Of a DNA stretch of 64,000 bases, positions 22,574 through 61,056 are shown piece by piece. How positions within the stretch are numbered: the stretch's first letter is position 1; every line of letters starts with the position of its first letter. The DNA lies in contig NZ_JAPZVN010000012.1 in NCBI RefSeq assembly GCF_027533845.1, forward strand, positions 1-64,000, given 5' to 3'. This DNA comes from Streptomyces sp. RPT161 (GTDB lineage Bacteria > Actinomycetota > Actinomycetes > Streptomycetales > Streptomycetaceae). Below the pieces are notes generated by a model. That model searched no databases, was not told the origin of the DNA, and worked only from the letters and a program-made list of their open reading frames with translations. The translations under genes were made by a program, and so were the position numbers.

Positions 22574-22848
22574 CCGCTGTGCGGCACTGCGCTTGCCCGA
22601 GACCCCATCCGCGCCTCCTGTGAGGACTACCGCGCCGCGGCGAGCACTGATCTGGTCCACGACGACGAGACGCCCTCGCAGGCCGCCTTGCCCTCGCGGG
22701 CCTTCCCGGGGTCGGGCGACGCCGGAAGGCCGTCCGAGGCCGTGACTCCGTATCACCTGTACAACACAGGAGCGAAAGTGTGATTGTTGTGTAATCGTCT
22801 GCGGCTAAAGTGTGGGCTGCTCAAACATTCGGGCGCTAGGCGCCAGTC

Positions 22849-25212
22849 GTGAGAGGAAGGCCCGCCCTGCCTACGGTCTCCCGGGCGCCCCGTCGGCACC
22901 GTACGCGCCGCCGCGCCGACATGCCGCTGCTCGGCGGAGTCCGCCCACCCATCGCCTCGTTCATCGTGCTGCTGCTGGTGGTCGCCGCCCTCACCGTCGC
23001 CGGTCTCGGCAGCGTCCACGGCGAGCAGGTGCCGCAAGCCGTGCTGGGCGGCGAGCAGCAGACCGCCGCCGACATCGCCGTCTCCGTGCGGACGGCGATC
23101 GACGCCGAGGCGACCACCGTACGCCGCACCGGGGACTCGTACACGGTGACGGGCAGGACCACTCCGGCGCAGGTGCTCAAGTCACTGGCCGCCGCGCGGA
23201 AAGCGGTGCTCGGCGGCGCGCTGCTGGACACGCAGTCCGGCCGCGTACTGGCGACCGGCGGCGAGCGGGTGCCGCTGACCGGGGTGGACGCCAAGGCGCT
23301 GACCGGCGACCACGGCACGGCCCCGCCGCGGCTGGTGACCGCGGGTACCGGGCAGCGGATGCTGTACTTCGCCAACGTCACCCTGCCCGCGCAGAGCGTG
23401 GACGCTAACCAGGACCAGAACCCGGACGCCGCCCTGCCCCAGCGCAAGCAGTGGCTGCTGGTGGTCTCCGAGGCGCTGCCCGCGCTCACCTCGTACGGCG
23501 ACGGGCGCACCGCCCAAGTGCTGGACGCCAAGGGGAACATGCTCGCCACCGCCGCCAGCGGTATGGCGCAGCCGCTGGACGCGGCCGACCTCGGGATCCC
23601 CTCGGCGGCGGTCGACGCGGCGGTGTCAGCCCACGGCGCCGGAGCCTCTGGAAGCCTGCTGGGAGCCACTTCGGGTGGCCGGCAGACGGTGGCCGGATGG
23701 GCGTCGGTCGCCTCGTCGTCCGGCACCGGCGACGCCGACCGTCTCGGGCTGGTCGTGCTGACCTTCCGCCCGGTTCCCGTCATGGGGCCCTCGGTCGACT
23801 ATTCGCGGTTCGCGCTGGTCGCCGCCGGGGTGCTGGCAGGGATCGCGCTGCTGGTCGGCCTGCTCCTCCAACTCACCGTGCAGCGGCCCCTGCTGCGGCT
23901 GTACCTGTCGGCCGACCGGCTGGCCAGAGGTGCGGGGGAGAGCGGTCCGCGGACCGCCGAGGATCTGGCCCGGCCGGTTCCGGTGCACGGGCTCGGCGAA
24001 CCGGCCCGGATCGGACGGGCGTTGGAGTCGCTGCGCCGCCAACTGCTGGGCGAGAGCGGTCCGGAGGAGATACCGGTACGGCGCGGCCCGGGCTGCAGGG
24101 CGCTCGCCGTCATCGCGATGCTGCTGGTGGCCGCTTGGGCGGCGCCGCTCATCTTCCTGCTGAACCGGGCGGATACCGCGACCGCGGTGCCGGCGCCCGT
24201 CGTCGCCGACCAGCAGGCGCGCACCGAGATCGCGGCGAACCGGATCAGGCAGTCCCTCGGCGAGTCGTACACCGACCTGTCGGACGTGGCGAAAAGCCTG
24301 TCCGGCACGACGAAGGCCGCCCAGACCACGGTCCTGGGACGCACCCTCGCCGACCACCACCACTTCCGCTCGCTGTACCTGATCGGCCGCACCGGCGCCA
24401 TCGTGCTACGGGTCGGCAAGACGCCGCTGCGCACCATCGTCCACGTGCCCGGCGGCAGCGGGATCACCACCGTGAACACCTCGGGCCGGATCCCGGCGAT
24501 CGCGGCCTACGCCCAGATACCGGTCGGCAAGGGCGGGGCCCTCGCGGGTGGTGGGGTGGTGCTCTTCGGTGAGATAGATGTGAACGCGCTCAACTCCGAG
24601 CTGCCCAGACCGAAGCTGGGCGGTGTCTGGGTGACCGACGCGAACTACAAGGTGCTGGCGGCGAGCATCGGCTACCGGGCCTTCGAGGCGCTGCCCGGCT
24701 CGGGCCTGACCCGGCTCGCCACCTCGACCCAGAGCGCCCCGGGTACCGCGGGCACCGCCACCTCGGCGGTCCTCCACTCCTCCTCCGGCCCGTCCGTCGC
24801 CGCCGCCGCGCCGCTCGCCCAGAGCGGCCCCACCGTCGGGCTCGGCTGGCGGGTGGTGACCGCCGAACCGGCGGCGGCGCTCCAACTACCCGCGTTCCAG
24901 GCCGAGCAGCGCACCATGCTCGCCGGCGTGCTCGGCCTCACGGTCGGCGTGGCCTGCCTGGGCTGGCTGCACATCGTGGTGATCCGGCCGCTGCGCACCA
25001 TGGCCGTGCTCGCCGAGCGGCTCGCCGGTGGAGACCGGCGCACTGTGCTGTACCCGGTCAACCACGACGAGGCGGGCTCGGTCACCCGCAGCCTGGAGCT
25101 GATCCGGCAGGCGCTGGCGGAACGGGGCCGGGGGAGCAGATCCGGTCACGCCTCCGCCGCCCAACCCGGCCCACCCGCCCAGTCCCGGCACACGAGCGCA
25201 CCCCAGCGGTAG
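22849..25212 (+). CDS. double sensor/HAMP membrane protein of the pgs locus
   Basis: About 787 residues arranged as two similar halves. Each has a transmembrane helix, an extracytoplasmic sensor-like region, a second helix and a HAMP-like linker. Helices lie near residues 35-58, 325-348, 425-443 and 697-715. The second HAMP is clear (VIRPLRTMAVLAERLAGGD). No kinase, cyclase or methyl-accepting domain follows; the tail is Pro/Ser-rich. It heads the operon with pgsB 15 bp downstream, so it may regulate or scaffold polymer synthesis. The start is uncertain: GTG 22849 has no good Shine-Dalgarno, and ATG 22921 is an alternative. Confidence 0.7.
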   Translation: MRGRPALPTVSRAPRRHRTRRRADMPLLGGVRPPIASFIVLLLVVAALTVAGLGSVHGEQVPQAVLGGEQQTAADIAVSVRTAIDAEATTVRRTGDSYTVTGRTTPAQVLKSLAAARKAVLGGALLDTQSGRVLATGGERVPLTGVDAKALTGDHGTAPPRLVTAGTGQRMLYFANVTLPAQSVDANQDQNPDAALPQRKQWLLVVSEALPALTSYGDGRTAQVLDAKGNMLATAASGMAQPLDAADLGIPSAAVDAAVSAHGAGASGSLLGATSGGRQTVAGWASVASSSGTGDADRLGLVVLTFRPVPVMGPSVDYSRFALVAAGVLAGIALLVGLLLQLTVQRPLLRLYLSADRLARGAGESGPRTAEDLARPVPVHGLGEPARIGRALESLRRQLLGESGPEEIPVRRGPGCRALAVIAMLLVAAWAAPLIFLLNRADTATAVPAPVVADQQARTEIAANRIRQSLGESYTDLSDVAKSLSGTTKAAQTTVLGRTLADHHHFRSLYLIGRTGAIVLRVGKTPLRTIVHVPGGSGITTVNTSGRIPAIAAYAQIPVGKGGALAGGGVVLFGEIDVNALNSELPRPKLGGVWVTDANYKVLAASIGYRAFEALPGSGLTRLATSTQSAPGTAGTATSAVLHSSSGPSVAAAAPLAQSGPTVGLGWRVVTAEPAAALQLPAFQAEQRTMLAGVLGLTVGVACLGWLHIVVIRPLRTMAVLAERLAGGDRRTVLYPVNHDEAGSVTRSLELIRQALAERGRGSRSGHASAAQPGPPAQSRHTSAPQR

Positions 25213-25227
25213 AAGGACGGAATCGAC

Positions 25228-26664
25228 GTGCTCTTTCTCTATCTCGTCCTGCTGCTGTGCTGCACCGCGCTGCTGGTCGCCGGAGTCCTGGAGCAGAAGC
25301 GGCACTTCGCCTCGCTGGAGCAGATCCCGACACGGGTGCTGGTCAACGGCATCCGCGGCAAGAGCTCGATCACTCGGCTGTGCGCGGGCGCGCTGCGCGG
25401 CGGCGGTCTGGCCACCGTCGCCAAGACCACCGGTACGGCCGCCCGGTTCATCCACCCGGACGCCACCGAGGAGCCGGTCTACCGCAAGTTCGGGCTGTCC
25501 AACATCGTCGAGCAGATCGGCATCGTGCGGCGTGCGGCGGCGTACCGGCCGGACGCGCTGGTGATCGAGTGCATGGCGGTGATGCCCGCGTTGCAGGAGA
25601 TCAACCAGGAGAAGCTGATCCGTTCCACCATCGGCGTGCTGTGCAACGTCCGAGAGGACCACCTTGAGGAGATGGGGCCGACCCTCGACGACGTCGCCCG
25701 CTCGCTCTCCCGCTCGATGCCGGTCGGCGGGGTCTGCGTCACCGCGGAGAAGGAGCGGCTGCACATCCTCAAGGAGGAGGCCGACAAGCGGAACTGCCGA
25801 CTGGTCGCGGTCGATCCGGAGACGGTGACCGACGCCGAACTGCGCGGCTTCAGCTGGTTCACCTTCAAGGAGAACGTGGCGATCGCGCTCGCGGTGGCCG
25901 AACTCCTCGGTGTGGAACGGCAGACCGCCCTTCAGGGCATGTGGGACGCCCCGCCGGACCCGGGCGTGCTGTCGGTGGAGCGCTACGCCACGCCGGAGGG
26001 CAAGCGGCTGCGGTTCGCCAATGTCTTCGCCGCCAACGACCCCGAGTCCACGCTGATGAACGTCAAGCAGCTGGAGGATCTCGGCGCCATCCGGCGGCCG
26101 CTGAACGTGGTCATCAACTGCCGCCCGGACCGGGTGGAGCGCAACGGCCAGATGGGCGCGATCGTCTCCGACCTCGGCGCCGAGGTGGTCTTCCTGATCG
26201 GGCACCCGACCAAGAGCGCCCGCGACGCGATTCCCGCGGGCTTCACCGGCCGGGTGGTCGACCTCGGCGGCGACAGGCGCGACCCGGAGGAGCTGACCGC
26301 CGCGATCCTCGCCGAACTCGCCCCGAACTCCTCGCTGGTGGCGATCGGCAACATCCACGGCCAGGGCGAGCTGTTCCTGGAGTGCCTCGCCGAGCTGCCG
26401 CTCGACGACTCCGATGAGCCGCTCGCCGTCGCCCCCGACGGCCTGGACCAGGACACCGTGCAGATCGCGGTCTCCCGGCCGCCCGAGCCGGAGCCGTACA
26501 GCTGGGTGGCACCCCTGGAGACCCCGGCGTACGGCCTGCACGTCCCCGGACAGCGCGAGCTGGCCCGCCGGTTCGCCGCCCGCCACGGCCGCCCGGCCGA
26601 GGGGGGCGGCGAGACCGACCCGCACCAGTCCTACGATCCGTACCAGCCGACGAGGAACCCGTAA
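25228..26664 (+). CDS. pgsB: PgsB/CapB poly-gamma-glutamate synthase subunit
   Basis: A 478-residue Mur-ligase-like amide ligase. After an N-terminal hydrophobic segment (LFLYLVLLLCCTALLVAG) comes the ATP-binding loop NGIRGKSSITRL, then KTTGTAAR, CNVREDHLEEMGPT and NVFAANDPEST, all characteristic of CapB/PgsB. It activates the growing chain as acyl phosphate and adds glutamate through the gamma carboxyl. The C-terminus is longer than in Bacillus, with a Pro/Glu-rich tail of about 80 residues. GTG 25228 follows AGAAGGA. It is directly followed by pgsC. The polymer has not been shown here; the residue could differ from glutamate. Confidence 0.92.
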   Translation: MLFLYLVLLLCCTALLVAGVLEQKRHFASLEQIPTRVLVNGIRGKSSITRLCAGALRGGGLATVAKTTGTAARFIHPDATEEPVYRKFGLSNIVEQIGIVRRAAAYRPDALVIECMAVMPALQEINQEKLIRSTIGVLCNVREDHLEEMGPTLDDVARSLSRSMPVGGVCVTAEKERLHILKEEADKRNCRLVAVDPETVTDAELRGFSWFTFKENVAIALAVAELLGVERQTALQGMWDAPPDPGVLSVERYATPEGKRLRFANVFAANDPESTLMNVKQLEDLGAIRRPLNVVINCRPDRVERNGQMGAIVSDLGAEVVFLIGHPTKSARDAIPAGFTGRVVDLGGDRRDPEELTAAILAELAPNSSLVAIGNIHGQGELFLECLAELPLDDSDEPLAVAPDGLDQDTVQIAVSRPPEPEPYSWVAPLETPAYGLHVPGQRELARRFAARHGRPAEGGGETDPHQSYDPYQPTRNP

Positions 26665-27147
26665 GTGATCCCCGCCAACCTCACCGCACAGACCGCCGCG
26701 CTCGGGATCGCCCTCGGGCTGGTCTTCTCGCTGGTCTGCTACCTGACCACCAACCTCTCGCCCGGCGGGATGATCACCCCGGGCTGGGTGGCCCTCACAC
26801 TCGTCACCGACGTGCAGATGGCCGCGATGATGGTGGGCGTCGCGGCGCTGACCTTCTTCGCGACGAAGCTGCTGCAACGCAACGTGATCCTGTACGGCAA
26901 GCGGCTGTTCGCCGCCGTGGTGCTGTGCGCGGTGCTGATGCAGACCACGGTGATGCTCGCGCTCAACCACGAGTTCCCGCTGCTGTACACATCGCAGACG
27001 CTCGGCTTCATCGTGCCGGGTCTCATCTCCTACCAACTGGTCCGTCAGCCGCTGGCGCCCACTCTCATCTCCACGACGGCGGTGACGCTGGCCACCTACG
27101 TGGTGCTGGTCGCCGGACTGCTGCTCGGCGCCTTGCCGACCGGCTGA
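26665..27147 (+). CDS. pgsC: PgsC/CapC poly-gamma-glutamate biosynthesis membrane subunit
   Basis: A 160-residue integral membrane protein with four to five hydrophobic segments. LVCYLTTNLSPGGMITPGWVAL is the conserved CapC opening and GLISYQLVRQPLAPTLISTTAV the conserved end. It forms the membrane complex with PgsB. The GTG start immediately follows the PgsB stop, so the two are coupled. Its C-terminal part is the parent-like sequence of a decayed copy at 43508-43696. Confidence 0.92.
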   Translation: MIPANLTAQTAALGIALGLVFSLVCYLTTNLSPGGMITPGWVALTLVTDVQMAAMMVGVAALTFFATKLLQRNVILYGKRLFAAVVLCAVLMQTTVMLALNHEFPLLYTSQTLGFIVPGLISYQLVRQPLAPTLISTTAVTLATYVVLVAGLLLGALPTG

Positions 27148-27191
27148 CCCGCCCCCGCCCGCTCGCCCCCGTACCACCAGGAGGACGTGCC

Positions 27192-28271
27192 ATGCACCAC
27201 GACCCCGGACACCCCCCACGGCGCGTCAGCCGCCGTACGGTTCTCGGGGCCATCGCAGGCGTGGCGGCCGCTGGGGCGGCGGGCGGTTACGCCTGGGACC
27301 GCTTCGGCGGCGGCCACAGTGAGGCGAGCAGGGGCGCGCCGACCGCGGGCGGGGGCCCCGGCGCGCACTCCACCGGCGGCTACGGCTTCGAGCGGCTGTC
27401 CTCCCCGAACCGCACCGTGGTGCGGGCCGCCGACGGCGCCACGCTCGCCACCTTCACCGACGGCGCCCGTACCGCCGTGCTCACCGGCCCCTCCCGCCGG
27501 TTCACCGAGCCGCGGACCACCGCGGCCGCGGTGACCACCGACGCCTGGGTACGGGTGCTGCCCCACGAGTGGCGGCAGGACATGGAGAAGTCCTCCTGGT
27601 TCAAGGGCTGGTTCACCAAGGCGCTCGGCGACACCAGCCCCGACGTCTTCGCCGTGGCGTTCCAGTACAGCAGCGCCGGGGCCCCCGACAAGTACAACGC
27701 CTCCGGCGTGCGCTACGCGGGAACCGCGCACTTCGGCCCGCGCAACAACGCCGTCAGCAACCCGCTGGACTTCGCCTACCACGACGAGAAGTCAGACTTC
27801 TACGACTACCTGGGCATTCCCTGGACCTTTCCCGACGGCACACGGGTCGACCCGCGGAAGGCCCGCTACGGCGACATCGACTGCTCCGGCTTCCAACGCC
27901 TGGTGTGGGGCTACCGCATGGGCATTCCGCTGCACAACACCAACACCGCGGGCGCGGGCCTGCCTCGGCGCGCCTTCGCCATCGCCGCCTACGGCCCCGG
28001 CCGCCTGCTGATCCCCGACACCGGGCAGCAGCCCACCGACATCAGCGTCCTGCAACCCGGGGACCTGGTCTTCTTCGCCATCATCAAGTCCGATCCGAAG
28101 CTGATCGACCACTGCGGCATGTATCTGGGACTCGACGACCAGGGCCGCCACCGCTTCTACTCCAGCCGCTCCGCCGCCAACGGCCCGACCATGGGCGACA
28201 TGTCCGGCCACGCGCTCCTGGACGGCACCGACTTCTACGCCCGCGGCTTCCGGACGGCCCGCCGACTGTGA
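27192..28271 (+). CDS. Tat-exported NlpC/P60-type peptidase of the pgs locus
   Basis: A 359-residue protein with a twin-arginine signal (RRVSRRTVLGAIAGVAAAG). The C-terminal half has the NlpC/P60 catalytic Cys in DIDCSGFQRLVWGYRMG and the His in LIDHCGMYLGLDD. A middle region of about 130 residues is unassigned. NlpC/P60 enzymes cut gamma-glutamyl bonds in peptidoglycan or poly-gamma-glutamate, so it probably trims or releases the polymer, in the place where Bacillus uses CapD or PgdS. ATG 27192 follows AGGAGG. A collapsed paralogue lies at 43727-43979. Confidence 0.85.
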   Translation: MHHDPGHPPRRVSRRTVLGAIAGVAAAGAAGGYAWDRFGGGHSEASRGAPTAGGGPGAHSTGGYGFERLSSPNRTVVRAADGATLATFTDGARTAVLTGPSRRFTEPRTTAAAVTTDAWVRVLPHEWRQDMEKSSWFKGWFTKALGDTSPDVFAVAFQYSSAGAPDKYNASGVRYAGTAHFGPRNNAVSNPLDFAYHDEKSDFYDYLGIPWTFPDGTRVDPRKARYGDIDCSGFQRLVWGYRMGIPLHNTNTAGAGLPRRAFAIAAYGPGRLLIPDTGQQPTDISVLQPGDLVFFAIIKSDPKLIDHCGMYLGLDDQGRHRFYSSRSAANGPTMGDMSGHALLDGTDFYARGFRTARRL

Positions 28272-28325
28272 CGTCCCTTCATATCCGCAACCGCTGACCC
28301 GATACGTACCCCCGAGGGACCCGCC

Positions 28326-30251
28326 ATGGCCACCATCCCCGCAGATCAGCCCACCGGCGCGCGCCGCCGCCACCGGGCGGCGCCCCGCCGCCACTGGTCG
28401 GCGGGGCGCCGCTCCGGTCGGCCGGAAGCCACCCTGCGCTGGGAGCGCCCGGCCCTCGCGGCGGTGCTCGCCCTCGCCACGGTGCTGTACGCGTGGGGCA
28501 TCGGGCATGCCGCGATCCACCCCTTCTACAGCGCGGCGGTACGGTCGATGGCCACCAGCTGGCGCGCCTTCCTCTTCGGCGGGCTCGACCCCAGCGGTTC
28601 GATCACCATCGACAAGCTTCCCGGCGCCTTCTGGCCCGACGCCGTCGCCGTCTGGGTCTTCGGCCCGCACAGCTGGGCCGCCGCGCTCCCGCAGGTCATC
28701 GAGGGCGTGCTCACCGTCTACCTGCTCCACCGCATCGTGCGCGCCTGGGCGGGGCCGCTCGCCGCGCTGATCGCCGCACTGGCGCTCACCCTCACCCCGG
28801 TCACCGTGGTCCTCAACCGGGCCACGATCCCGGACACCGCGCTCACTCTGCTGCTGGTGGCGGCGGCCGGCGCGCTGCAGAAGGCCGTGCGCACCGGGCG
28901 GCTGCTGCCGTTGATCACCTGCGGGGTCTGGGTGGGACTCGCCTTCCAGACGAAGATGCTGCAGGCCTGGCTGGTGTTGCCGGTCTTCGCCGCGGTCTAC
29001 CAACTCGCCGCGCCCGGCTCACCGTTGAAGCGGGCCGTGCGTGTCCTGCTGGGCGGCACGACGGCCCTGGCCGTCTCCTGCTTCTGGGTGCTGATCGCCT
29101 GGGCGACGCCCGCCGCCGCCCGCCCCTACCTCGACGGAACGTCCAACAACAATCCGTTCAGTCTCGTCTTCGGCTACAACGGCCTGAGCCGCTTCGGCAG
29201 CAATCCCACCGCGTTCGGAGCCGTCCCTGGCACCGCCGCCAGCCGCACCACCGGCAACACCGGCTGGGACATGCTCGTCAACCACACCATCGGCCCGCAG
29301 ATCGCCTGGTTCCTGCCGCTCGCCGTGCTTTCCCTGGTGCTGGGCCTGATGTGGCGGGCGCGCCTGCCGCGCACCGACCTGCCCCGCGCGGGATTCGTGC
29401 TGTGGGGTGGCTGGCTGACAGTCCACGCCGTGGTGTTCAGCGCCTCCAACGGCAACCACGCCTACTACACCGCTGTCATCGCGCCGGCGCTCGCCGCGCT
29501 CGCCGGCGGCGGACTCGCCGTCTTCTGGACCGAGTTCGACAGCGGCGGCCCCCGGCGGGCGGCGCTGCCCGGCGCGATCGTGCTGACGGTGGTGTGGGCC
29601 CTGGTGGTCGACTGGCCGACCCGGTTCGTCTCCTGGCTGCTGCCGGTCGCCGTGATGCTCGCGCTCTGTAGCGCGTTGGGCCTGTGGACCAGGGGCCCGC
29701 GCACCACCCGGCGGCTGGTGCACGGTGCGCTGGCGTCCGGGGTGGCGGCCACGCTGGTCGTACCGGCCGGGTGGGCCGCCTCCAGCCTCGACCCGCGCTA
29801 CGCGGGTGCCTCGACCTCGCCGGTGGCCGGTCCGGTCGGCACCGCCTACGCCGACCTTGTCCACCACCGCGCCAAGGTCAGCAGCATCGGTCTCGACCAG
29901 CCGTCCGCCCGCGACAGCGCGGTGCTCAGCTACCTCACAGCGCACCGCCACGGCGAGAAGTACCTGCTCGCCACACAGGCGGCGTACACCGCTGAGCCGC
30001 TGCTGCGCGCCACGGCCCAACCCATGCTCGTCATGGGCGGCTTCACCGGGCGCACCCCGTTCCCCACCGCCCAGCAGCTCGGCGATCTGGTCGCCGCGCA
30101 CCAGCTCCGCTACGCGATGCTCACCACCCAGCGCCCCACCACCCCGGCCACCACCTGGGTCAAGAACCACTGCAGCCGGGTTCCTCCCTCCGCCTACGGC
30201 CGTACCACCAACGGCAGCTTCACCCTCTACGACTGCCAGCCCTGGGGGTGA
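28326..30251 (+). CDS. GT39-like membrane glycosyltransferase of the pgs locus
   Basis: A 641-residue polytopic protein with about 10-12 transmembrane segments. The first extracytoplasmic loop carries PSGSITIDKLPGAFWPDA, with the acidic residue pattern of PMT_2/ArnT-type (GT39/GT83) transferases that use polyprenyl-phosphate sugars. A C-terminal soluble domain of about 150 residues follows. Placement at the end of the pgs operon suggests that the polymer or its anchor is glycosylated. The sugar and the acceptor are unknown. Confidence 0.85.
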   Translation: MATIPADQPTGARRRHRAAPRRHWSAGRRSGRPEATLRWERPALAAVLALATVLYAWGIGHAAIHPFYSAAVRSMATSWRAFLFGGLDPSGSITIDKLPGAFWPDAVAVWVFGPHSWAAALPQVIEGVLTVYLLHRIVRAWAGPLAALIAALALTLTPVTVVLNRATIPDTALTLLLVAAAGALQKAVRTGRLLPLITCGVWVGLAFQTKMLQAWLVLPVFAAVYQLAAPGSPLKRAVRVLLGGTTALAVSCFWVLIAWATPAAARPYLDGTSNNNPFSLVFGYNGLSRFGSNPTAFGAVPGTAASRTTGNTGWDMLVNHTIGPQIAWFLPLAVLSLVLGLMWRARLPRTDLPRAGFVLWGGWLTVHAVVFSASNGNHAYYTAVIAPALAALAGGGLAVFWTEFDSGGPRRAALPGAIVLTVVWALVVDWPTRFVSWLLPVAVMLALCSALGLWTRGPRTTRRLVHGALASGVAATLVVPAGWAASSLDPRYAGASTSPVAGPVGTAYADLVHHRAKVSSIGLDQPSARDSAVLSYLTAHRHGEKYLLATQAAYTAEPLLRATAQPMLVMGGFTGRTPFPTAQQLGDLVAAHQLRYAMLTTQRPTTPATTWVKNHCSRVPPSAYGRTTNGSFTLYDCQPWG

Positions 30252-30502
30252 CCGGCGCCCCGGCTGCCACCGCACCGCGCAGACGGCGCCGCCCTCGGCG
30301 CTGGTGCCGCGTCACGAGGACGCGAGCGGGGTGAACCGCCGGAACGCCTTTTCCGTACAAGGTGGTTGGACCCGCGACATCGCAGTGGGTGGCGCAGGCG
30401 CCGCGTTACAGGGCTGACGAACATGTGTGGGCGGTGTGGCGGTACGGTGTGCGGCAGTCGATCGCCGGTCGCGCGATCGCGGACCACCAAGGGGGTTTCT
30501 CC

Positions 30503-31834
30503 ATGCCACACCGCCGACCGCCCCGCCGCAGCAGGCTGCTCTCCAGAGCTGTCGGCACGGCGGGTGCGCTGGCCGTCGTCCTGGGCGCGGGGATAGCGCC
30601 CGCGTCGGCCGCCGCTAAAGCACCCGGCGCGCCCGCCACCGGATTCTCACCCGACGAGGACGTCCCCTGGGCGCCCACCAAGGATGAGGCACCGTTGCAG
30701 CACAAGTCCGTCCACCCGGCGACCACCCGCGGCCGCACGGACGGCGATGCGCTCCAGCTCAACCTCCCGGCGCCGACCGGGCGTTACTCGGTCGGGACGG
30801 TCAGCCTCCACCTCGTCGACACGTCCCGTACGGATCCGTACGTGCCCGGCAACGCGCGCGAACTGATGGTCTCCGTCTGGTACCCGGCCGCCTCCACCTC
30901 GGGGCACGCGCAGGCGCCGTGGATGCCGTCGGTCTCCGGAGCCAGCTTCCTCGCCTCGCGCGGCCTGTCTCCCGATGAGGTCTCCCTGCCCGAGACGGCT
31001 GGCCACGTACTCGCCCCGGTCGACACCAAGCTCGGCAAGCTGCCCGTCCTGCTCTACTCCACAGGGCTGCACTCCGACCGTGCGATGGGTACCGCCCTCG
31101 TCGAGGACCTCGCCAGTCGCGGGTACATCGTCGTCACCGTCGACCACACCCACGACGCGAACGAAGTCGAGTTCCCCGGCGGGCGACTTGAGACCGACGC
31201 CATGCCGTCCAACGCGCACTCCTCCCACACGGTCGCCGTGCGCGCGGCGGACATCCACTTCGTCATCAACCAGCTCGCCAAGATCGCCAAGGGTGGTAAC
31301 CCCGACGTCGACCACGCCAAGCTCCCCTCGGGCCTGGCCAGCGCCGTCGACATGTCGCGCATCGGGATGTTCGGTTGGTCGCTGGGCGGCGCCGCGGTGC
31401 CGACCTCCATGCAACTCGACTCGCGCATCGCCGCAGGGGCCGACCTCGACGGCCAGTTCTTCGGCCCCGCGACCAGCGAGAACCTCAACCGGCCCTTCAT
31501 GCTTTTCAGTTCGGGCACCCACAACCGCAACAACGACTCCTCGTGGCGCACGTTCTGGTCCCATCTGACCGGCTACCGGCTCGACATCCAACTCAAGGGC
31601 TCGGCCCACCTGTCGTTCAGCGACAACGAGGCGATGGTCCCCCAGGAGGCGGATCTCCTGGGGCTCTCCCAGTCCGACCTCCAGCAGCAGTTCGGCACCA
31701 TCGACCCCAACCGCGCCATCGACGTCGAGCGCGTCTACCTCGCCGCGTTCTTCGACCAGCAGCTTCGCAACAAGCACAGCACTCTCCTCAACGGCCCCAA
31801 CAAGCAGTACCCAGAAATCAACTTCGTCCGCTGA
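30503..31834 (+). CDS. secreted alpha/beta hydrolase (PAF-acetylhydrolase-like)
   Basis: A 443-residue protein. The N-terminal signal has RRPPRRSRLLSR, a hydrophobic core and ASA cleavage. The nucleophile elbow is GMFGWSLGGAA (GxSxG), the acid is likely in AGADLDGQFFG and the His in GSAHLSFSD, in the arrangement of platelet-activating-factor acetylhydrolase II. It would be an extracellular esterase or lipase. ATG 30503 follows AAGGGGG. It may be an independent unit: a 250-bp gap separates it from the pgs operon. Confidence 0.87.
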   Translation: MPHRRPPRRSRLLSRAVGTAGALAVVLGAGIAPASAAAKAPGAPATGFSPDEDVPWAPTKDEAPLQHKSVHPATTRGRTDGDALQLNLPAPTGRYSVGTVSLHLVDTSRTDPYVPGNARELMVSVWYPAASTSGHAQAPWMPSVSGASFLASRGLSPDEVSLPETAGHVLAPVDTKLGKLPVLLYSTGLHSDRAMGTALVEDLASRGYIVVTVDHTHDANEVEFPGGRLETDAMPSNAHSSHTVAVRAADIHFVINQLAKIAKGGNPDVDHAKLPSGLASAVDMSRIGMFGWSLGGAAVPTSMQLDSRIAAGADLDGQFFGPATSENLNRPFMLFSSGTHNRNNDSSWRTFWSHLTGYRLDIQLKGSAHLSFSDNEAMVPQEADLLGLSQSDLQQQFGTIDPNRAIDVERVYLAAFFDQQLRNKHSTLLNGPNKQYPEINFVR

Positions 31835-31868
31835 CCGCCACACCGACTCCGGCCTCGTGATCCGGCCC

Positions 31869-31929
31869 GAGCACACGAAGGCCCAGGCCAGCCGGTTGAT
31901 CACCGGCTGGCCTGGGCCTTCGTGTGCTC
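31869..31929. terminator. bidirectional hairpin between hydrolase and P450
   Basis: A perfect 28-bp inverted repeat (31869-31896 and 31902-31929) with a 5-nt loop, between convergent genes. It can end transcription from both sides. Confidence 0.9.
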
Positions 31930-32126
31930 GGACCGGCCAGCGGCCGGCACCCAGCCACGACCGACTGGGGCGACTGGCGAAGGACGACTCACCGCGGATC
32001 ACTCAGGAGGCCCGCCAGGGCCTTGAGCGCGCTTTGGACCTCGCCTTGTGGATGGATCTGTACTCCCCGACTGTCAGCCGCTCGTGACCTGGCCGAGGGC
32101 GGATGACGCGCAGGCGGCGACGGCAG

Positions 32127-33257
32127 TCAGCGAGACCCCGCGGTGGCGTCCCCGGCGATCCGGGGAGGGCGTTCAAGCCCGTTGCGGCGGCGGCGCACCT
32201 TTGTCTTCGGGCCGATGTGCACGGCATCGACGCCGAGCAGCCCCTCGAACGGCACATACGCCTCGCGCTGCCCGGGGGCCACCATCAGGTCGGTCTCGCG
32301 GATGTGGCTGAGCAGCAGTTCGGCGAGTGGCATGACCATGTGGCGGCCCCAGCAGCGTTCGGAGGCGTGGCCGAAGGGCATGTAGCCGGGGGTGTCGTCG
32401 GGGTCGAGCGCATCCCAGCGTTCCGGGCGGAACTCGTGCGGGTGGTCCCACAGGGCGGGGTCGCGGTGGGTGAGCAGCGGCAGCATCAGCACATCGTCCG
32501 CGGCGCCGATGCGCGGGTCGATGGCCGGGTACTCGGGGGAAGCGTCGCGGAGCATGTTCCACGACGGCGGCAAGAGCCGCATCGCCTCCCAGATGATGTT
32601 CCGCGTGGGAACGCCGTCGTCGAACGGGGCGCCGAGCCACAGGGCGTTGGCGACGAGAGTGGAGACGGTGAAGCAGACCGGGGCGGCCAGACGCCGGTAG
32701 ATGCCCATCGCCCAGCGGCGGTCCTGATACCCCTCGGCTTCGGCGAAGAGGTTCCCGGTGTGCGTCAGTTGCGGCCCCGGTGTCGGCCGCCCGGGCAGGG
32801 CGGCGCCGGCGACGATGGTGATCCAGGTCAGCTTGGGCGTCAGCTCCAGCGTGCGGGACATGAGGATCTTCAGGCGGTAGGGGTCGTCCCGCAGGACGAG
32901 GTCCCGCAGGAACATGTGCCCGGTGATCGGCCATGGCCCCGACAGATCCGTTGTCTTCGGCAGCGGGTCGGGCTGCTCCAGTGCGGTGCGCACATCCTTG
33001 CCGATGGTGCGAATGCCCGCCGACGCCTCTGCCTTCGAGATCGACCGGCCGTGCAGCGGCTTGAAAGTGGGCCGCTCCGTCTCGGTCGCCTTCCTCCCCG
33101 CGAGGATCTTGTCGGACAGTTCGGCCCCGGCGATGCCGATGGTGTCCGGTTCCAGGCGGATGAGGTCCTTGCCCAGGTGGTCATCGAGCAGAGCTCGAAG
33201 ACGCGGATGGAAGACCGTGGTCCGGCGCACGGCAGGGTGGGGTGTGGAAGCAGGCAA
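32127..33257 (-). CDS. cytochrome P450, predicted atropopeptide-forming
   Basis: About 376 residues. The heme-binding motif is PFGHASERCWGRHM, with Cys as the thiolate ligand. The K-helix ExxR is EAMRLLPP. It lies 115 bp downstream of the peptide gene ending AWYHWY on the same strand. In known atropopeptide (tryptorubin) loci, one P450 installs the C-C and C-N crosslinks between aromatic residues, so that role is proposed. The start is uncertain: TTG 33257 follows GGAG at 7 nt and precedes family-like sequence (PAVRRTTVFHPRLRALLDDH), while the open frame extends to 33506 across the precursor, which is unlikely. Confidence 0.85.
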   Translation of the reverse strand: MPASTPHPAVRRTTVFHPRLRALLDDHLGKDLIRLEPDTIGIAGAELSDKILAGRKATETERPTFKPLHGRSISKAEASAGIRTIGKDVRTALEQPDPLPKTTDLSGPWPITGHMFLRDLVLRDDPYRLKILMSRTLELTPKLTWITIVAGAALPGRPTPGPQLTHTGNLFAEAEGYQDRRWAMGIYRRLAAPVCFTVSTLVANALWLGAPFDDGVPTRNIIWEAMRLLPPSWNMLRDASPEYPAIDPRIGAADDVLMLPLLTHRDPALWDHPHEFRPERWDALDPDDTPGYMPFGHASERCWGRHMVMPLAELLLSHIRETDLMVAPGQREAYVPFEGLLGVDAVHIGPKTKVRRRRNGLERPPRIAGDATAGSR

Positions 33258-33372
33258 CAGGACGCTCCGTGGCGTGGATGCGGACCAGGGCCCGCAACCG
33301 GCGGAACCCAGCAGCTCGGGGAACGAGGAGCCGGTGCCGGTGTGCGGGCCCGGTGCTGGAATCGCTGGCGGT

Positions 33373-33447
33373 TTAGTACCAGTGGTACCAGGCGACGCGC
33401 TTGAAGCTGCGCGCGCCGAAGATCGCCTCGCGGATCTTCTTGGCCAT
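33373..33447 (-). CDS. atropopeptide precursor, predicted core AWYHWY
   Basis: A 24-residue gene whose C-terminus is AWYHWY. Tryptorubin A, the founding atropopeptide, is a processed AWYIWY hexapeptide encoded at a precursor C-terminus beside a P450. The match of length, position and aromatic spacing is close, with His replacing Ile at position 4. The leader is 18 residues, basic (AKKIREAI, SFKRV). A very strong Shine-Dalgarno (GGAGGGGGG) lies 6 nt before the ATG. The P450 follows on the same strand. No dedicated protease or exporter is adjacent, as in known loci. The gene is too short for usual ORF callers. Confidence 0.85.
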   Translation of the reverse strand: MAKKIREAIFGARSFKRVAWYHWY

Positions 33448-33492
33448 GGTGTCCCCCCTCCCTCGACGTCGCACATCACATGGGCGGTGGGA

Positions 33493-33563
33493 CACGCCAG
33501 TTTCACGTCCCCCGAGGTGGGAGACCTGTCGGTCCAACCGATGAGACGCAGTGAACTGGCGTG
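33493..33563 (-). repeat. long inverted repeat upstream of atropopeptide precursor
   Basis: CACGCCAGTTTCAC (33493-33506) and GTGAACTGGCGTG (33551-33563) are complementary apart from one extra T, separated by 44 bp. It lies 46-116 bp upstream of the precursor start, so it could be an operator pair or a 5' leader structure. Confidence 0.5.
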
Positions 33564-33820
33564 CGTCAGGAGATGTCAACGGGTCTGACGAGGGCAAGTA
33601 GGCAGTTTGATGCTCAAGTTGACTGTGAGTTGTGCATCAGGCACTCATGTGTGACGCAAGGTTAGGCACTGTGCGACACCAGATGAGCAGCAGGTGAACA
33701 AAGCGCCACCCGTCACGACCGGCGGCGGCTGAGAACTGCCAACAAGGCCTTGCCGAACCGGCGTTGGCCGTTGAGGGTTTCGGCCAGTAGGCCGCACCGG
33801 CTCCGGCGCGCTACGGCGCG

Positions 33821-34231
33821 CTAGGCGCAGGACGGGCACAACCCCCGGTAGGTGACCACGACTTCCGACACCGTGAAGCCGAACCGTTCCCCGGCGGGGA
33901 GGTCGGCCAGCGGATCGCCGGTCGGGTGGACGTCGCGGATGGTGCCGCAGTTGGAGCACACGAGGTGCTGGTGCGGGCGGTGCGCGTTGGGGTCGTAACG
34001 CTTCGCGCGGCCGTCGGTGGAGACCTCCACGACCTCCCCGAGGGACACCAGCTCGCCCAAGGTGTTGTAGACGGTCGCCCGGGAGATCTCGGGCAGCCGC
34101 TCGGCCGCGCGGGTGTGCACCTCGTCGGCCGTGAGGTGCACGTGCTCGCCGTCGAGGACCTCCGCAACGGCACGCCGCTGGGAGGTCATCCGCCAGCCGC
34201 GTCCTCGCAGTCGCTCCAGCAGGTCACTCAT
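33821..34231 (-). CDS. Fur family transcriptional regulator (CatR/PerR-like)
   Basis: A 136-residue Fur-type repressor. The winged helix contains RGWRMTSQRRAVAEVL and SRATVYNTLGELV. The metal site includes HRPHQHLVCSNCG and a C-terminal CPSC pair, so the structural zinc Cys4 site is intact. The sequence is nearer to the peroxide-sensing actinobacterial CatR/FurA group than to iron or zinc sensors. It is divergent from katG, 378 bp away, and probably represses it and itself, being relieved by peroxide. A broken furA-like gene lies between. Confidence 0.9.
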   Translation of the reverse strand: MSDLLERLRGRGWRMTSQRRAVAEVLDGEHVHLTADEVHTRAAERLPEISRATVYNTLGELVSLGEVVEVSTDGRAKRYDPNAHRPHQHLVCSNCGTIRDVHPTGDPLADLPAGERFGFTVSEVVVTYRGLCPSCA

Positions 34232-34306
34232 ATCGGTTCACCTATCAGGTTCGGTGGGTGCCCGAAGTTCACCGGGATCCGATTGGGTACGGGTTTCGCA
34301 TGCTTC

Positions 34307-34334
34307 TTGACTTGGACTCTGTCCATCGTAGGAT
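34307..34334 (+). promoter_or_regulatory. katG promoter with internal palindrome
   Basis: TTGACT (34307-34312) and TAGGAT (34329-34334) with a 16-bp spacer form a good vegetative-type promoter. The spacer holds the palindrome TGGACTCTGTCCA (34313-34325), a candidate Fur-family operator. It sits just upstream of the broken furA and 280 bp before katG. Confidence 0.6.
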
Positions 34335-34390
34335 CGCTTCCGGTGATAACCAAGGGACAGGAAGACTCCAGTACGGCAGGAGACAGAGAC

Positions 34391-34560
34391 TTGACGGGAC
34401 CCCCGCCGAGGAACTGCGCGGTGCCAGCCTGCGGGTGACGGCCGCCCGCGTCGCGCTGCCCGACGACCGCCCGGGACGGAGACCACCTCCGTGTCGAGGC
34501 GATCGTCTCCAGGGCGCGCGATCGCATGGGCCATGTCTGCCTGTACCCCGACTGTTCCAC
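34391..34560 (+). pseudogene. furA remnant between fur and katG
   Basis: Two plus-strand frames read PAEELRGASLRVTAARVAL, then after a frameshift between about 34456 and 34478, GDHLRVEAIVSRARDRMGHV. These match in order the N-terminal DNA-binding half of actinobacterial FurA/FurS, which normally precedes katG (cpeB) in one operon. The rest of the protein is missing. It appears that the cis furA has decayed. Confidence 0.7.
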
Positions 34561-34594
34561 CGCCCGCAGTTCCGGAACACCGTGATCCGCCTAG

Positions 34595-36841
<2,247 letters not shown>

Positions 36842-53715: not shown

Positions 53716-55545
53716 TCAGACGACTGGTGCTCCGTTCGCGGTGACCACGCCCTCCATGGAGACGGTCGTCGCCTCCGTGGAGACGGACGCCGCGGTGGTG
53801 TTGACCTCGGTGGCCTCCGTGGTGACCGCGGTCGCCGCGGTGTTCACCTCCACGGCGCTGAAGGAGAGTTCGGACTCCGAGCTGATGCTGACCACGGCCC
53901 CGCGCAGGGTGAGTGGGCCCTGGCTGGTGACCGAGACCGCCCTGGTGCCGGTGATGCTCACTTCGCCGTCGCTGCGGATGGTGATGGCGGTACCGGTCTG
54001 GTCCAGGTGCACCGTCATCGACTCGTCCCCGGTGCGCAGTCGTACGCCGCGCGGGGAGACCGGAGCGTCCAGCAACTCCAGCCGGTTGCCGCTGCGCGAG
54101 ACCAGGCTGCGCCGGTTGACCCGGCCACTGGTGCCGTCGGTCAGCGGGACATCGTGCGGCGAGGGCTTGTCCCGCCCGTTGTAGAGCCCGCCCAGCACAT
54201 AGGGGTGGTCGAGAGCGCCCCGGTCGAAGGCGACCAGCACCTCGTCGCCCACTTCGGGGCTGATCACGCCCCCGCCGCGGACGCCGCCGAACTGCACGGT
54301 GCGCGCCCAGTCGGAGACGTAGTCATCCGAGAGCCAGGGGAAGTTGAGCTTCACCCGGCCCTGCTCCAGCGGGTCCTTGACGTCGGTGACGGTGCCGATC
54401 ACCACCCCGGACAGCCGCTGCTCCAGCGCCGCCCCGGACCCGGAACCGGAGGCCAGCCCGTACAGGGTGCGGTGCTGGCGGCCGCTGACGGTAAGCCAGG
54501 TGCGGTAGCCGGTTCCGGCGCTGAAGTGATGGCGTACGGCGGTCGCGGTGTAGCGGCCCTCGAACGGCACGCCCATGCCGTTGAGCGCGACGGGGACGCC
54601 CGGGCGCAGCCACGGGTCACCGCGCAACTCCGCCTCCAACTCGGCGAAGGCGGCGGCGGTGTCGGCGGCCAGCGCGTCGGCGGCGTGCTCCACCTCGGAC
54701 TGGGTGTCGTAGGGAACGTCCGTGCCGAGGAGTTCGGCGGTGCCGAAGGGAGCCGCGGCGCTGCCGGGGGTGAGCCCGATCTTCAGCTCGTCGCTGTCCG
54801 CGGCGCTGACCCGGGCGGTGAGCGGACGCTTGGCGTGCACGTCCCAACCCCGTACCTGGACGTTCGTCACCTGGTCCGACGCGGTGACGCCGACCCGGCA
54901 GCGGATCAGGTTGCGGCCCTTCTCGACCACGTACGGGCTGGACTTGGCGGGCGTGCTGGGCGCGGGCGCGCCCGAGGCGGGCTTGGGCTGCACGAACTGG
55001 AACTCGCCCTGGTCGGTGAAGACCACCTCGGCGTCGTTCTCGTCGGCCAGCCGGTTGAGGAACTCCCAGTCCGACACGCCAGGTTGGGTGACCAACTGGT
55101 AGACGGTCGCCGTGGAATCGACACGGCCGACGGTGAGGCCGTGTTGCGCCGCGATCCGGCGGGCGATGTCGGAGGCGGTCATCTCCCGGTATCCGGCCAC
55201 CCGGCGGCCGCGCAGCAGACGGTGGCCGAAGTCCAGCCCACGGACCACGGTGAACGCCCCGGCCCCGTCGAAGTCCGTTTCCAGCGCGGTGACTTCGCCG
55301 GTGAGGAGCGGCTTTCCGGAGTCCTTGCCGTCGGCCAGCCCGCGCAGTACGGCGCGTGAACCGATCCTGACGCCCAGCGCGGCCAGCACCTGGTGGTGCG
55401 GGTCCTGGAAGGTCAGCTGGAAGGCCGCCGGGACATTGACGCTGGCGTCCACCCAGCCCTCTACCAGCAGGGATGCCAGGGCCGAGGTCAGCGGGCGGCC
55501 GTCCAGGGTGACCTGGAGAACCTCGGTGTACGGAGTCTCACTCAT
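53716..55545 (-). CDS. VgrG-like spike protein
   Basis: A 609-residue spike. Residues 1-330 are the gp27-like hub domain (phage_GPD), residues about 385-460 an OB-fold gp5 part (VVIGTVTDVKDPLEQGRVKLNFPW), and the tail is a beta-helix with repeating VNTTAASVSTEATTVS-like units. It forms the membrane-piercing tip. ATG 55545 lies inside the end of the LysM adaptor gene (8-bp overlap). No effector domain is fused at the C-terminus. Confidence 0.93.
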   Translation of the reverse strand: MSETPYTEVLQVTLDGRPLTSALASLLVEGWVDASVNVPAAFQLTFQDPHHQVLAALGVRIGSRAVLRGLADGKDSGKPLLTGEVTALETDFDGAGAFTVVRGLDFGHRLLRGRRVAGYREMTASDIARRIAAQHGLTVGRVDSTATVYQLVTQPGVSDWEFLNRLADENDAEVVFTDQGEFQFVQPKPASGAPAPSTPAKSSPYVVEKGRNLIRCRVGVTASDQVTNVQVRGWDVHAKRPLTARVSAADSDELKIGLTPGSAAAPFGTAELLGTDVPYDTQSEVEHAADALAADTAAAFAELEAELRGDPWLRPGVPVALNGMGVPFEGRYTATAVRHHFSAGTGYRTWLTVSGRQHRTLYGLASGSGSGAALEQRLSGVVIGTVTDVKDPLEQGRVKLNFPWLSDDYVSDWARTVQFGGVRGGGVISPEVGDEVLVAFDRGALDHPYVLGGLYNGRDKPSPHDVPLTDGTSGRVNRRSLVSRSGNRLELLDAPVSPRGVRLRTGDESMTVHLDQTGTAITIRSDGEVSITGTRAVSVTSQGPLTLRGAVVSISSESELSFSAVEVNTAATAVTTEATEVNTTAASVSTEATTVSMEGVVTANGAPVV

Positions 55546-56272
55546 GGCTCGGCGCCAACTCCTCGGCCGCGGGCAGCAGTAGTTCGCTGCCGGGGGAGAG
55601 GACCATGGGGTCGTCGATGCCGTTGGCCTCGGCGATGGCCCGCCAGGCACCGGGATCGCCGTACTCGCGCCACGCGAGGGACTGCAGCGAGTCCCCGGCG
55701 ACGGTGCGGTGCACACGGCGGGCGGTGAGCGCGCCCGAGGTCGGGTTCTGGCCGGGGGTCTGGCCGGGCACCTCCTGCAACGTCAACGAGCATGTGGCAC
55801 GCAGCGGTTCGCCGCCCGGCGAGAAGACCGTGTAGCTGACGTCGACCGAGGTGACACAGGCGTCGAAGCCGATGGAGGAGAAGGTTCCCCACTCCATGCG
55901 CACCCACGGTGGTGAAGGCGCCTTGCGGGACAGGCTGGCCTCGGTCGGCTCGCAGCAGGCGAGCAGGGTCTCCACCCGGCTGCGGACACCGCTGCTCCCT
56001 GGCTGGTCCGAGGCGTCCAGCAGGACCTGGACGGAGAGCACCCGCGGGTCCGCGTTGAGGAACTGCGGCGGTGAGGTGCGCTGGAACCCGATCGCCCGGC
56101 CCGGCTCCCAGCTCGCGCTCTTGCGCAGGTCGATGGTGGACGGGTTGTACTGCAGGGGCAGTTCGGCGAGGAGCCCGCCGGGCCCCGCGGTCACATCGGT
56201 GGGCGGCTCGTACACCCGGAGCGAGGCGCGCCGCATGCCGCCGCCGGTGGTGCTGGATGAACTGGGGGACAT
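55538..56272 (-). CDS. LysM-containing tube-spike adaptor
   Basis: A 244-residue protein of the CIS tube/LysM family. The first two-thirds form the tube-like domain (LPLQYNPSTIDLRKSASWEPG), and a LysM domain ends the chain (VAGDSLQSLAWREYGDPGAWRAIA...NGIDDPM). It joins the inner tube to the spike, like gp53 in T4. It overlaps both neighbours by a few bases. Confidence 0.92.
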   Translation of the reverse strand: MSPSSSSTTGGGMRRASLRVYEPPTDVTAGPGGLLAELPLQYNPSTIDLRKSASWEPGRAIGFQRTSPPQFLNADPRVLSVQVLLDASDQPGSSGVRSRVETLLACCEPTEASLSRKAPSPPWVRMEWGTFSSIGFDACVTSVDVSYTVFSPGGEPLRATCSLTLQEVPGQTPGQNPTSGALTARRVHRTVAGDSLQSLAWREYGDPGAWRAIAEANGIDDPMVLSPGSELLLPAAEELAPSHE

Positions 56273-56712
56273 CAGGCCGCTCCGGCGTCGGTGAAGCCGT
56301 GGTGGGTGATCTCAAGGGTCTCGGTGGCCACCGCGGGGGAGGCCGGGTCCAGTGACGGTCCCTGCCAGCGCACCGGCAGCACCTCCAGCAGTCCCCACTG
56401 GGCGACCTGGCTGCCGTCCGCGCGCAGGGCGACGATCTGCGCGGTGGGACGGCGGATTCCGGTGGCGATGGAGGAGATCCAGCTGGTCACCTTGGCGGTC
56501 TCGTGGGTCAGCGGCCGGGAGAGGCGGATGGTGGAGTGACGTACCCGCGTGGGGAGTTGCCAGACGTGGCCGTTGTTCCCGCCTTCCTCCCACTGCTGCA
56601 CCTCGACCTCCGCGGCGAGGCCCTCGCAGCTGTTGAAGAGACCGAGGTCCAGCCCGTCGATGGTGAGCCGGAAGAAGATGGAGGACCCGGGGTCCTGCTG
56701 GGCGGTGGTCAC
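56272..56712 (-). CDS. second tube-type protein (tube initiator)
   Basis: A 146-residue phage tail tube homologue: SSIFFRLTIDGLDLGLFNSCEGLAAEVEV and TLEITHHGF show the T4 gp19-like beta-barrel pattern. Contractile systems usually carry two tube proteins, a major one (here 60613-61056) and a specialised one near the hub. Its place next to the LysM adaptor suggests the latter role. Confidence 0.88.
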   Translation of the reverse strand: MTTAQQDPGSSIFFRLTIDGLDLGLFNSCEGLAAEVEVQQWEEGGNNGHVWQLPTRVRHSTIRLSRPLTHETAKVTSWISSIATGIRRPTAQIVALRADGSQVAQWGLLEVLPVRWQGPSLDPASPAVATETLEITHHGFTDAGAA

Positions 56713-56755
56713 GTCGTGCTCCTGGTGGGGATGGTGGGGTTGCTGGTTCGCCTAC

Positions 56756-59700: not shown

Positions 59701-59989
59701 GCCGTTCACCGGACTGCGGAACAGCACGCAGCAGCCCGTGCACCACCCCGGCTGGCGCCACGGGTGAGACGAGGTGCGTCAACCCGCTTGAGAACGACGG
59801 GTTTTGCCAGGCGGTCAACGAGTCGCCGAAATCGGCGCGCGCGCCGACCGCCGTCAGTCCGGCACGCGGCGCGGGCGGTGGCACCTGCCGCCACTCCGCA
59901 CGGGCAGACGCGGCGGGCGGCGCCGGTTCGGGGGTCACCGCCCCGCGCGCCACCGCCCCGCGCGCACGCCGAAGTCCGGGGAACCGCAT
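56756..59989 (-). CDS. large Pro/Ala-rich repetitive protein of the injection system
   Basis: About 1077 residues, almost all low-complexity Pro, Ala, Thr and Val. Units of the form PVPVARLAAxPGTT...PALNAHPSAV recur at least six times in the region of residues 700-950. A short N-terminal part (DFGDSLTAWQNPSFSSGLTH) and the last 40 residues (DPELDVLARRLVGPLARLLRAELRLDRERLGRL) are ordered-looking; the end resembles amphipathic helices seen in other contractile-system proteins. No catalytic domain is visible. It could be a tape measure or a tethering/assembly factor. ATG 59989 follows GGGGGG at 7 nt; GTG 60010 is an alternative. Confidence 0.75.
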   Translation of the reverse strand: MRFPGLRRARGAVARGAVTPEPAPPAASARAEWRQVPPPAPRAGLTAVGARADFGDSLTAWQNPSFSSGLTHLVSPVAPAGVVHGLLRAVPQSGERLPGHSPAVPLLPVARREPPGADGWAESAATATRSTPAVRVRAVSRPRASTVLPVPGTAASGLGAPAAPTAPEETVPGPAAPGARPTPEGTAPVQAAPAPAGSTSGKAASAAEAAVPTPAVPTPEGAVPTPVAPAAPPASERTVPTPPTPAMPTPPGGRASAPAAPVAEAAPVAEAVSERSAPVRIKTPASKAGAEVPTGPASAQAPGVATRAALGAPLGAVPPGARRLSGGASAAPAPASPSRPARPRPNQKVGLGAPVQRRVDTLPPTTAPEGGRPSVAKRADAAASGPTPPDEPEPFSGSAAPVGASAQRDHRGGQSGTAPARVQEAPAATSSRPVPSAPHVSAAATPEAEAEVGAVSASPTATTVLRTRDAQHGGASSADARRAPMSQSVPLSSAAERTVQSGLSNVPNPPSGSVAKRGSASPAVGITPAVRADRPRRAGSQRPAPEVQRSVEAPRSASTAPVRRWLQTATPTTPGRSNAVPGAAARPVIPVQTVPVPASPRRSPDAAAPAAPTRTEIRSAPTSGAPPRGLPPAGGSPAAPVAVPQHSGMPTAPSAAGTLPPAAGPVDVSGVTAPGLTARTPAAHPSAASPSALPGPNGGPAPAVPNAPVPVARRASGPGTTAPAPALTPHPSAARTPAAGNTGAGHRAIPVARLAAAPGTTETTPALNAHSPATPASSASAPSAPGAAIPIARLAATVPGTTTPAPALNAHPSAVLQSPAGALAAPSAPAPVARLAATPALNAHPSAVRPPAGASNPGAASTPVPIARLAATPRTTVPAPVNNPHPSPVAPYPAAPARSATAGRNAPIPVARLAAAPAAAAPTPAPHPAAVRPPAAWPGQAAPPAPAQTASMSGRTAAHLPVARAVPAPSRYAAAETAAPTRPTRTATAPPPIAPQASTRPRPAAQPAPPQAAPKPQAPRQSAPKPDAGPTPTGPRALSDPELDVLARRLVGPLARLLRAELRLDRERLGRLRDPRR

Positions 59990-59990
59990 C

Positions 59991-60149
59991 TCATGCCCCC
60001 CGTTCAGCACGGTCCACGAGCGCGGCGATCTCGCTCACCCAGCGCTGCCGGTCGCGGTGCTCCATGTCCAGGATGGTGTCCAGACCCCAGTGGAAGTGGT
60101 AGGCGATGTACGCGGCCTCCTCGTGCAGTTGGTCGGCCGCGTACGTCAC
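59991..60149 (-). CDS. small DUF6760-like protein of the injection system
   Basis: A 52-residue protein, YAADQLHEEAAYIAYHFHWG near its start and HRDRQRWVSEIAALVDRAE after it. It resembles a short conserved protein found in contractile-system loci between tail assembly genes. GTG 60149 overlaps the stop of the previous gene by four bases (GTGA), and its own stop overlaps the start region of the large Pro-rich gene. The tight coupling supports it as a real gene although it is below usual length limits. Confidence 0.8.
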   Translation of the reverse strand: MTYAADQLHEEAAYIAYHFHWGLDTILDMEHRDRQRWVSEIAALVDRAERGA

Positions 60150-60613: not shown

Positions 60614-61056
60614 TACTCAATGACCAGTTCTTCGAAGGTGATGGTCACGGTCTCGGTCAGCGCCGACGCCTCGCCCGCCTTCGCCGAGCTGGCGTCCACC
60701 TTCGAACACCAGGCGTTCCGCAGGTGGTACCGCTTGACCGGGTTGTTCATGTAGTCCATGAAGATGATGCTGGCGTTCTTGCGGGCGGCGCCCATGTTCC
60801 CCGCGATGGACTGGTTGATCCACTGCGAGAAGGACGCGCTCTGCGTGGCGCCGCGCACGACCGTGCACTGCCCGGCCTTCTTCACGCCCGGCAGCTTCTT
60901 GACGACCGGCTTTCCGGCCGCCGAGACCTGCTGGTACTCGATGACGTCCTGCTCGATCGACAGGCCTTCGACCGACTGCAGGTACTCGACCATCACGCCG
61001 TCGATCTGCAGTCCGAAATTGTGCGAGGTGAGGGCATCACCAGGCTGGAGAGACAT
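60613..61056 (-). CDS. major inner tube protein
   Basis: A 147-residue T4 gp19-like tube protein: GDALTSHNFGLQIDGVMVEYLQSVEGLS is the conserved start and TETVTITFEELVIE the end. It stacks as hexamers inside the sheath. It lies 52 bp downstream of the sheath gene, as in other contractile injection systems, and should be the most abundant tube subunit. Confidence 0.94.
   Translation of the reverse strand: MSLQPGDALTSHNFGLQIDGVMVEYLQSVEGLSIEQDVIEYQQVSAAGKPVVKKLPGVKKAGQCTVVRGATQSASFSQWINQSIAGNMGAARKNASIIFMDYMNNPVKRYHLRNAWCSKVDASSAKAGEASALTETVTITFEELVIE

Follow-up and report, generated by a model that had tools for sequence, protein, structure and literature searches.

Streptomyces sp. RPT161 carries a further atropopeptide-type locus, whose core peptide recurs in other loci and whose leader motif is unique to it among the loci examined. 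The stretch analysed, here called the window, comprises positions 1 to 64,000 (forward strand) of contig NZ_JAPZVN010000012.1 in assembly GCF_027533845.1. Judged by sequence comparison the locus is very probably a minimal two-gene atropopeptide (tryptorubin-type RiPP) locus with the standard order and spacing, and it is an ordinary member of the family with a modest twist. The preliminary description of this DNA had pointed to a 24-residue frame ending in AWYHWY, with a strong Shine-Dalgarno and a P450 on the same strand; all of these are present, on the minus strand, and the proposed pairing of an atropopeptide-type precursor with a P450 in the usual two-gene arrangement was borne out.

The precursor gene and its P450

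The precursor gene (33373..33447, minus strand) was recognised from its translation and from the homologous P450 that is present in 22 of the 26 other loci brought in by a search with its product. It encodes MAKKIREAIFGARSFKRVAWYHWY, 24 codons from an ATG at 33447 to a TAA stop, and with the border set by relatives this divides into a leader peptide of 18 codons, MAKKIREAIFGARSFKRV (33394..33447, minus strand), and the core peptide AWYHWY (33376..33393, minus strand), as read from the translation. A gene of 24 codons would escape gene callers with the usual length limits. The frame stays open upstream to a TTG at 33597, which would give 74 aa, and the length of 24 aa is a judgement, made because the ATG has a ribosome-binding site, GGGAGG (33457..33462, minus strand), 9 nt before it and because of the lengths of related precursors: with starts chosen by script, 107 of 110 precursors (that of Streptomyces sp. 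RPT161 included) are 25-40 aa, 65 of them 26 aa. A scan for sigma-70-like promoters, which is weak for such genomes, found none, and the RNA fold of 33373-33580 has a z of -2.56. When the stretch around the precursor was compared with relatives at E 0.01, the match in nearly all rows listed covered the last part of the precursor gene and the bases that directly follow; the promoter side gave no match at this threshold among the rows listed, and two rows had short matches elsewhere.

It is extremely improbable that the short ORF is a chance frame and that the P450 acts on another substrate. Against the leaders of its P450's clade the leader taken alone is indistinguishable from chance, its score being reached by 689 of 1000 shuffled leaders and by 861 of 3712 open stretches in the window, but the frame ends in an exact family core and a stop, has the spacing and the ribosome-binding site, and is followed by a family-typical P450. 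The core pattern W[YFW]xW[YFW]-stop has a single match in the 64-kb window and occurs in none of 300 first-order random windows, and exact matches to FKxxxWYxWx-stop were found in one of 391 genomes, that of Streptomyces sp. RPT161.

The second gene (32127..33257, minus strand) encodes an atropopeptide-modifying cytochrome P450 of 376 aa with a TTG start, as indicated by alignment, Pfam, conserved columns and tree. Its frame begins 115 nt downstream of the precursor on the same strand, with a GGAG (33265..33268, minus strand) 7 nt before the TTG. The start was taken as the TTG at 33257, where MPASTPHPAVRRTTVF aligns with the ATG-started MPSSTQHPAARRTTVF of the related locus L028, and the idea that a frame without an ATG meant a damaged P450 was rejected on this alignment with the ATG of relatives. 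In another relative, L037, the open frame reaches a further 44 codons upstream of the P450, to an ATG, and that enzyme may carry an N-terminal extension. The haem-binding loop FGHASERCWG (32346..32375, minus strand) contains the cysteine ligand C302, which is invariant in 12 aligned rows. The Pfam p450 match covers residues 218-319 only, and three further P450s in the same genome match in residues 218-339 only, at 29-33%. The AlphaFold model, with a mean pLDDT of 78.5, is too poor for active-site statements; a structure search returned P450s in all of the best 50 of 924 PDB matches, with TM-scores of 0.36-0.53 to the query.

The P450 is intact and under purifying selection, since it departs at one of the 129 columns conserved in at least 95% of 81 rows and has a pairwise dN/dS of 0.20-0.34 against ten clade members. 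A decaying locus, where the P450 or the leader has drifted and the product is no longer made, would fit the TTG in place of ATG, the RSFK motif, the odd leader, the absence of the P450 from both congeners compared and the alteration of 15 columns that are invariant in the ten clade members. We nevertheless consider decay very unlikely: of the other 80 rows, 42 depart at none of the 129 columns, 15 at one and 23 at more, there is no internal stop or frameshift, dN/dS is well under 1, and the core, the stop and both ribosome-binding sites are intact.

Relatives and surroundings of the locus

The 24-residue query matched 27 of 394 family genomes at E up to 1, Streptomyces sp. RPT161 included, and four of the 26 other loci (L015, L017, L020 and L026) lack such a P450. 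A P450 of this kind was found at E up to 1e-90 in 51 of 394 family genomes, that of Streptomyces sp. RPT161 counted, and one occurs in three of 394 genomes of a class-level sample; the genome samples of the precursor, P450, FKxxxWYxWx and WYHWY searches overlap. Plasmid records with a relative of the P450 number 18, from Streptomyces clavuligerus (16) and Embleya (2). The P450 alignment, searched in a species-level genome collection, led to 112 confirmed relatives; the 80 best were carried forward. The preliminary description had let its reading depend on conserved homologues of the short ORF beside similar P450s, and a script found a precursor-like ORF ahead of the P450 in 80 of these 80 loci, also picking a second, unrelated-looking ORF in L031, L047, L051 and L103; the precursors of L047 and L051 were taken from this ORF survey. 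Where P450s were identical over residues 21-300 of the match, their loci were counted as one, which reduced 130 loci to 110 distinct ones. L090, from Xanthomonas cucurbitae, has a precursor but was left out of the tree: counted from the match start, its P450 frame lasts for 95 codons while the match continues beyond it, which means a broken gene, either in the locus itself or in the assembly.

The grouping of the P450, on which the preliminary description also relied, is the same in both trees: it falls inside the P450s that stand beside atropopeptide precursors. In the tree of 110 distinct P450s (its own included) a clade of 14 rows holds it (support 100), L028 and L031 being its sisters (support 95), and its branch is fairly long at 0.23; a more careful 41-row tree gives the same clade at 100/100 and the same sisters at 88/93. 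The other 13 loci of the clade (L028-L038, L076 and L128; 11 are named as Streptomyces, and L076 is named 'Actinobacteria bacterium') have PSLK leaders, and their P450s are the nearest, at 76-82% identity. Identity is 61-73% to the P450s of the 22 loci from the precursor search and 68% to that of L107, which by contig and place is the published jum (amyxirubin B) locus; according to the part of PMC11450843 available to us, this locus yields amyxirubin B when expressed.

With regard to the definitions in that part of PMC11450843, the P450 is of the class-defining atropopeptide-modifying kind, judged here by its nesting in the tree among P450s beside atropopeptide precursors, jum included. AWYHWY has the Trp at core position 2 that defines atropopeptides and the Trp at positions 2 and 5 (xWxxWx) of the bitryptides, a subfamily there described by an xWxxWx core together with a KSLK leader. 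The locus resembles those of tryptorubin A/B, amyxirubin, varsorubin, scabrirubin and laurentirubin in its short precursor directly before a homologous P450, its xWYxWY core and a leader closing with an SxK motif two residues before the core, and differs from them in RSFK for KSLK, a precursor of 24 aa and His at core position 4. The biarylitides (P450Blt, Tyr-x-His or Tyr-x-Trp) are alike in having P450-made aryl crosslinks on a ribosomal peptide of very few residues in which His may occur, but their precursor has five residues from an 18-bp gene (PMC13417212, in the part used here), compared with 24 residues in Streptomyces sp. RPT161. The P450Blt structure 8U2M, mentioned in the consulted part of PMC12352619, is absent from the entries listed for the 18 PDB sequences that match our P450 at E 1e-5.

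On one side the locus has a PAF-acetylhydrolase-like gene and on the other a Fur/PerR-type regulator divergent from the catalase-peroxidase KatG (33821-36841, adjoining the locus); no further tailoring gene was seen beside it. A 35-nt inverted repeat with a 5-nt loop, 97% perfect (31862..31936, no strand assigned), lies between the convergent P450 and PAF-acetylhydrolase-like genes and is perhaps a two-way terminator; a scan of 31800-33830 for T-run terminators called nothing. The G+C of the P450 is 70%, the same as that of the window. In the two congeners compared, searches found neither the P450 (E 1e-40) nor the precursor (E 0.001). Within the pieces compared, 22699-31845 of the window forms one stretch of a contig in one congener and 29178-31921 does so in the other, 33816-36884 matches another contig in both, and the locus itself (31922-33815) has no match, with a break in synteny between the flanking blocks. 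Because the flanks match the congeners and the stretch between them does not, we infer that the locus was gained in, or kept only by, the lineage of Streptomyces sp. RPT161, at a point of rearrangement. Farther along the window, Pfam matches reveal genes of a phage-tail-like contractile injection system (53716-62818), with a baseplate hub/spike gene (53716-55716, minus strand) and a tail sheath gene (61109-62818, minus strand).

The core peptide and its expected product

The locus had been announced as a new atropopeptide precursor with the core AWYHWY. The locus is real, but the core is not new: eight of the 110 other distinct loci share AWYHWY (L055, L061, L069, L071, L079, L135, L153 and L155). 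The WYHWY-stop pattern occurs in four of 382 genomes of an order-level sample, Streptomyces sp. RPT161 included. In the text of the literature searched the string AWYHWY was not found, and the matches listed for WYHWY concern other subjects, going by their titles. Tryptorubin A derives from AWYIWY. Tryptorubin B is made from lauA together with lauB1, and for LauA the core is stated as WYIWY (the available parts of PMC11450843 and PMC12352619). Core position 4 is Ile, Leu, Phe, Gly, Val, Ala or Arg in relatives, and the tree requires at least six changes between His and other residues there. Since the 13 clade mates of the P450 carry Phe, Ile or Val at this position, His4 looks like a gain of Streptomyces sp. 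RPT161's own.

The product would be formed as follows. The leader would dock on the P450, with RSFK in the place of KSLK, and the enzyme would join Trp2 to Trp5 by oxidative bond formation; if the product is tryptorubin- or varsorubin-like, Tyr3 and a backbone nitrogen would also be joined to Trp, by oxidative C-C and C-N bonds. A host protease would then cut off the leader and often Ala1. His4 would lie between the crosslinked residues, most likely unmodified. The [M+H]+ expected for AWYHWY and WYHWY would be 923.3835 and 852.3464 with one crosslink (-2H), 921.3678 and 850.3307 at -4H, and 919.3522 and 848.3151 at -6H.

The suggestion that His4 could add imidazole chemistry to the crosslinking was overstated. 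The enzyme ScaB, which is closest to the root of the family P450 tree, cyclised ScaA-I25H, with His at the same core position, and also a natural precursor giving WPHWY; the crosslinks of ScaB were located at residues 1 and 4 of WxxW/WxxY and not at the two between (all from the accessible part of PMC12352619). Because another P450 of the family thus accepts His here, engineered and natural, His4 is probably a spectator, by analogy with that enzyme. If His4 were itself crosslinked, through an imidazole C-N or C-C bond to Tyr or Trp, the topology would be new to atropopeptides. Biarylitide P450s do make Tyr-His links, in Tyr-x-His (as given in the parts of PMC11450843 and PMC12352619 used), and the recurrence of His at core position 4 might reflect selection for this residue. 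The same part of PMC12352619, however, reports that with ScaB, another enzyme, ScaA-I25H yielded the cyclic tetrapeptide like every other position-4 variant except Arg, the bond in I25H not being described in that part, and that His placed at a crosslinking position gave no cyclic product (ScaA W26H; XaaA W23H and Y26H; XamA2 W22H and Y25H). Nor does any column of the P450 distinguish the AWYHWY loci: the best three residues occur in eight of nine His rows and also in 28-35 of 101 others. We consider a crosslinked His4 unlikely and favour the spectator role.

The leader motif

At the place of the KSLK motif, core positions -6 to -3, the precursor has RSFK (33400..33411, minus strand), the sole feature of the locus met in no other locus examined and the one that the first reading, right in kind, had missed. 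All 109 other precursors have xxLK there: KSLK in 85, PSLK in 13, QSLK in five, KPLK in three, and ESLK, RSLK and KNLK in one each. The S-F-K preserves the spacing from motif to core, and RSFK stands at the right place while falling outside the six leader motifs published in the part of PMC11450843 consulted. The QSLK precursors (L006, L041, L105, L135 and L136) and the KNLK precursor (L099) are likewise off that list, as given there, in otherwise family-typical loci.

The rest of the leader resembles canonical leaders (IREAIFGA compared with IRNAVSGQ), unlike the KKSEP leaders of the P450's own clade; the leaders of that clade end KKSEPSLKQ-like and its cores are AWY(F/I/V)WY, and Streptomyces sp. 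RPT161 has neither. One explanation would be that the precursor was exchanged, so that recombination brought in a canonical-type leader, on which a P450 of the PSLK clade now acts. In both trees the P450 lies within the clade, next to its sisters L028 and L031, and leader positions -7 to -15, anchored at the right, fit 72 distinct canonical leaders to a degree that 95 of 5000 shuffles reach, whereas their fit to 12 distinct clade leaders is at chance level (3975 of 5000 shuffles as good); these positions and the anchoring were picked after viewing the sequences. A gapped test of the whole leader against all 109 leaders is not significant, however (104 of 1000 shuffles as good), and L036, which has a PSLK-type leader with a short insert, scores 6.2 against the canonical leaders and thus fits them as well as the leader of Streptomyces sp. 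RPT161, which scores 4.9. More simply, this lineage may have branched first within the PSLK clade and kept an older leader. In an AU test a clade formed by the 13 PSLK rows alone, with the P450 of Streptomyces sp. RPT161 outside it, is not rejected (p 0.31), which allows the earliest branching. Retention of the older leader therefore suffices; an exchange is possible yet unneeded, and we regard it as rather unlikely. Somewhat less likely still is the widest reading, that the leader motif is not fixed and the P450 reads S-F-K on a canonical-type leader though its clade uses PSLK, the two genes being an exchanged or re-tuned pair; its boldest step would be the imidazole crosslink at His4.

The His4 core may yield an imidazole-bearing analogue of tryptorubin, although at least eight other distinct loci carry this core already. 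RSFK is a natural leader variant beyond the motif list used for mining atropopeptides, and a search limited to that list would therefore drop the precursor of Streptomyces sp. RPT161. The locus also provides a natural means of testing which residues of the leader are read by the P450.
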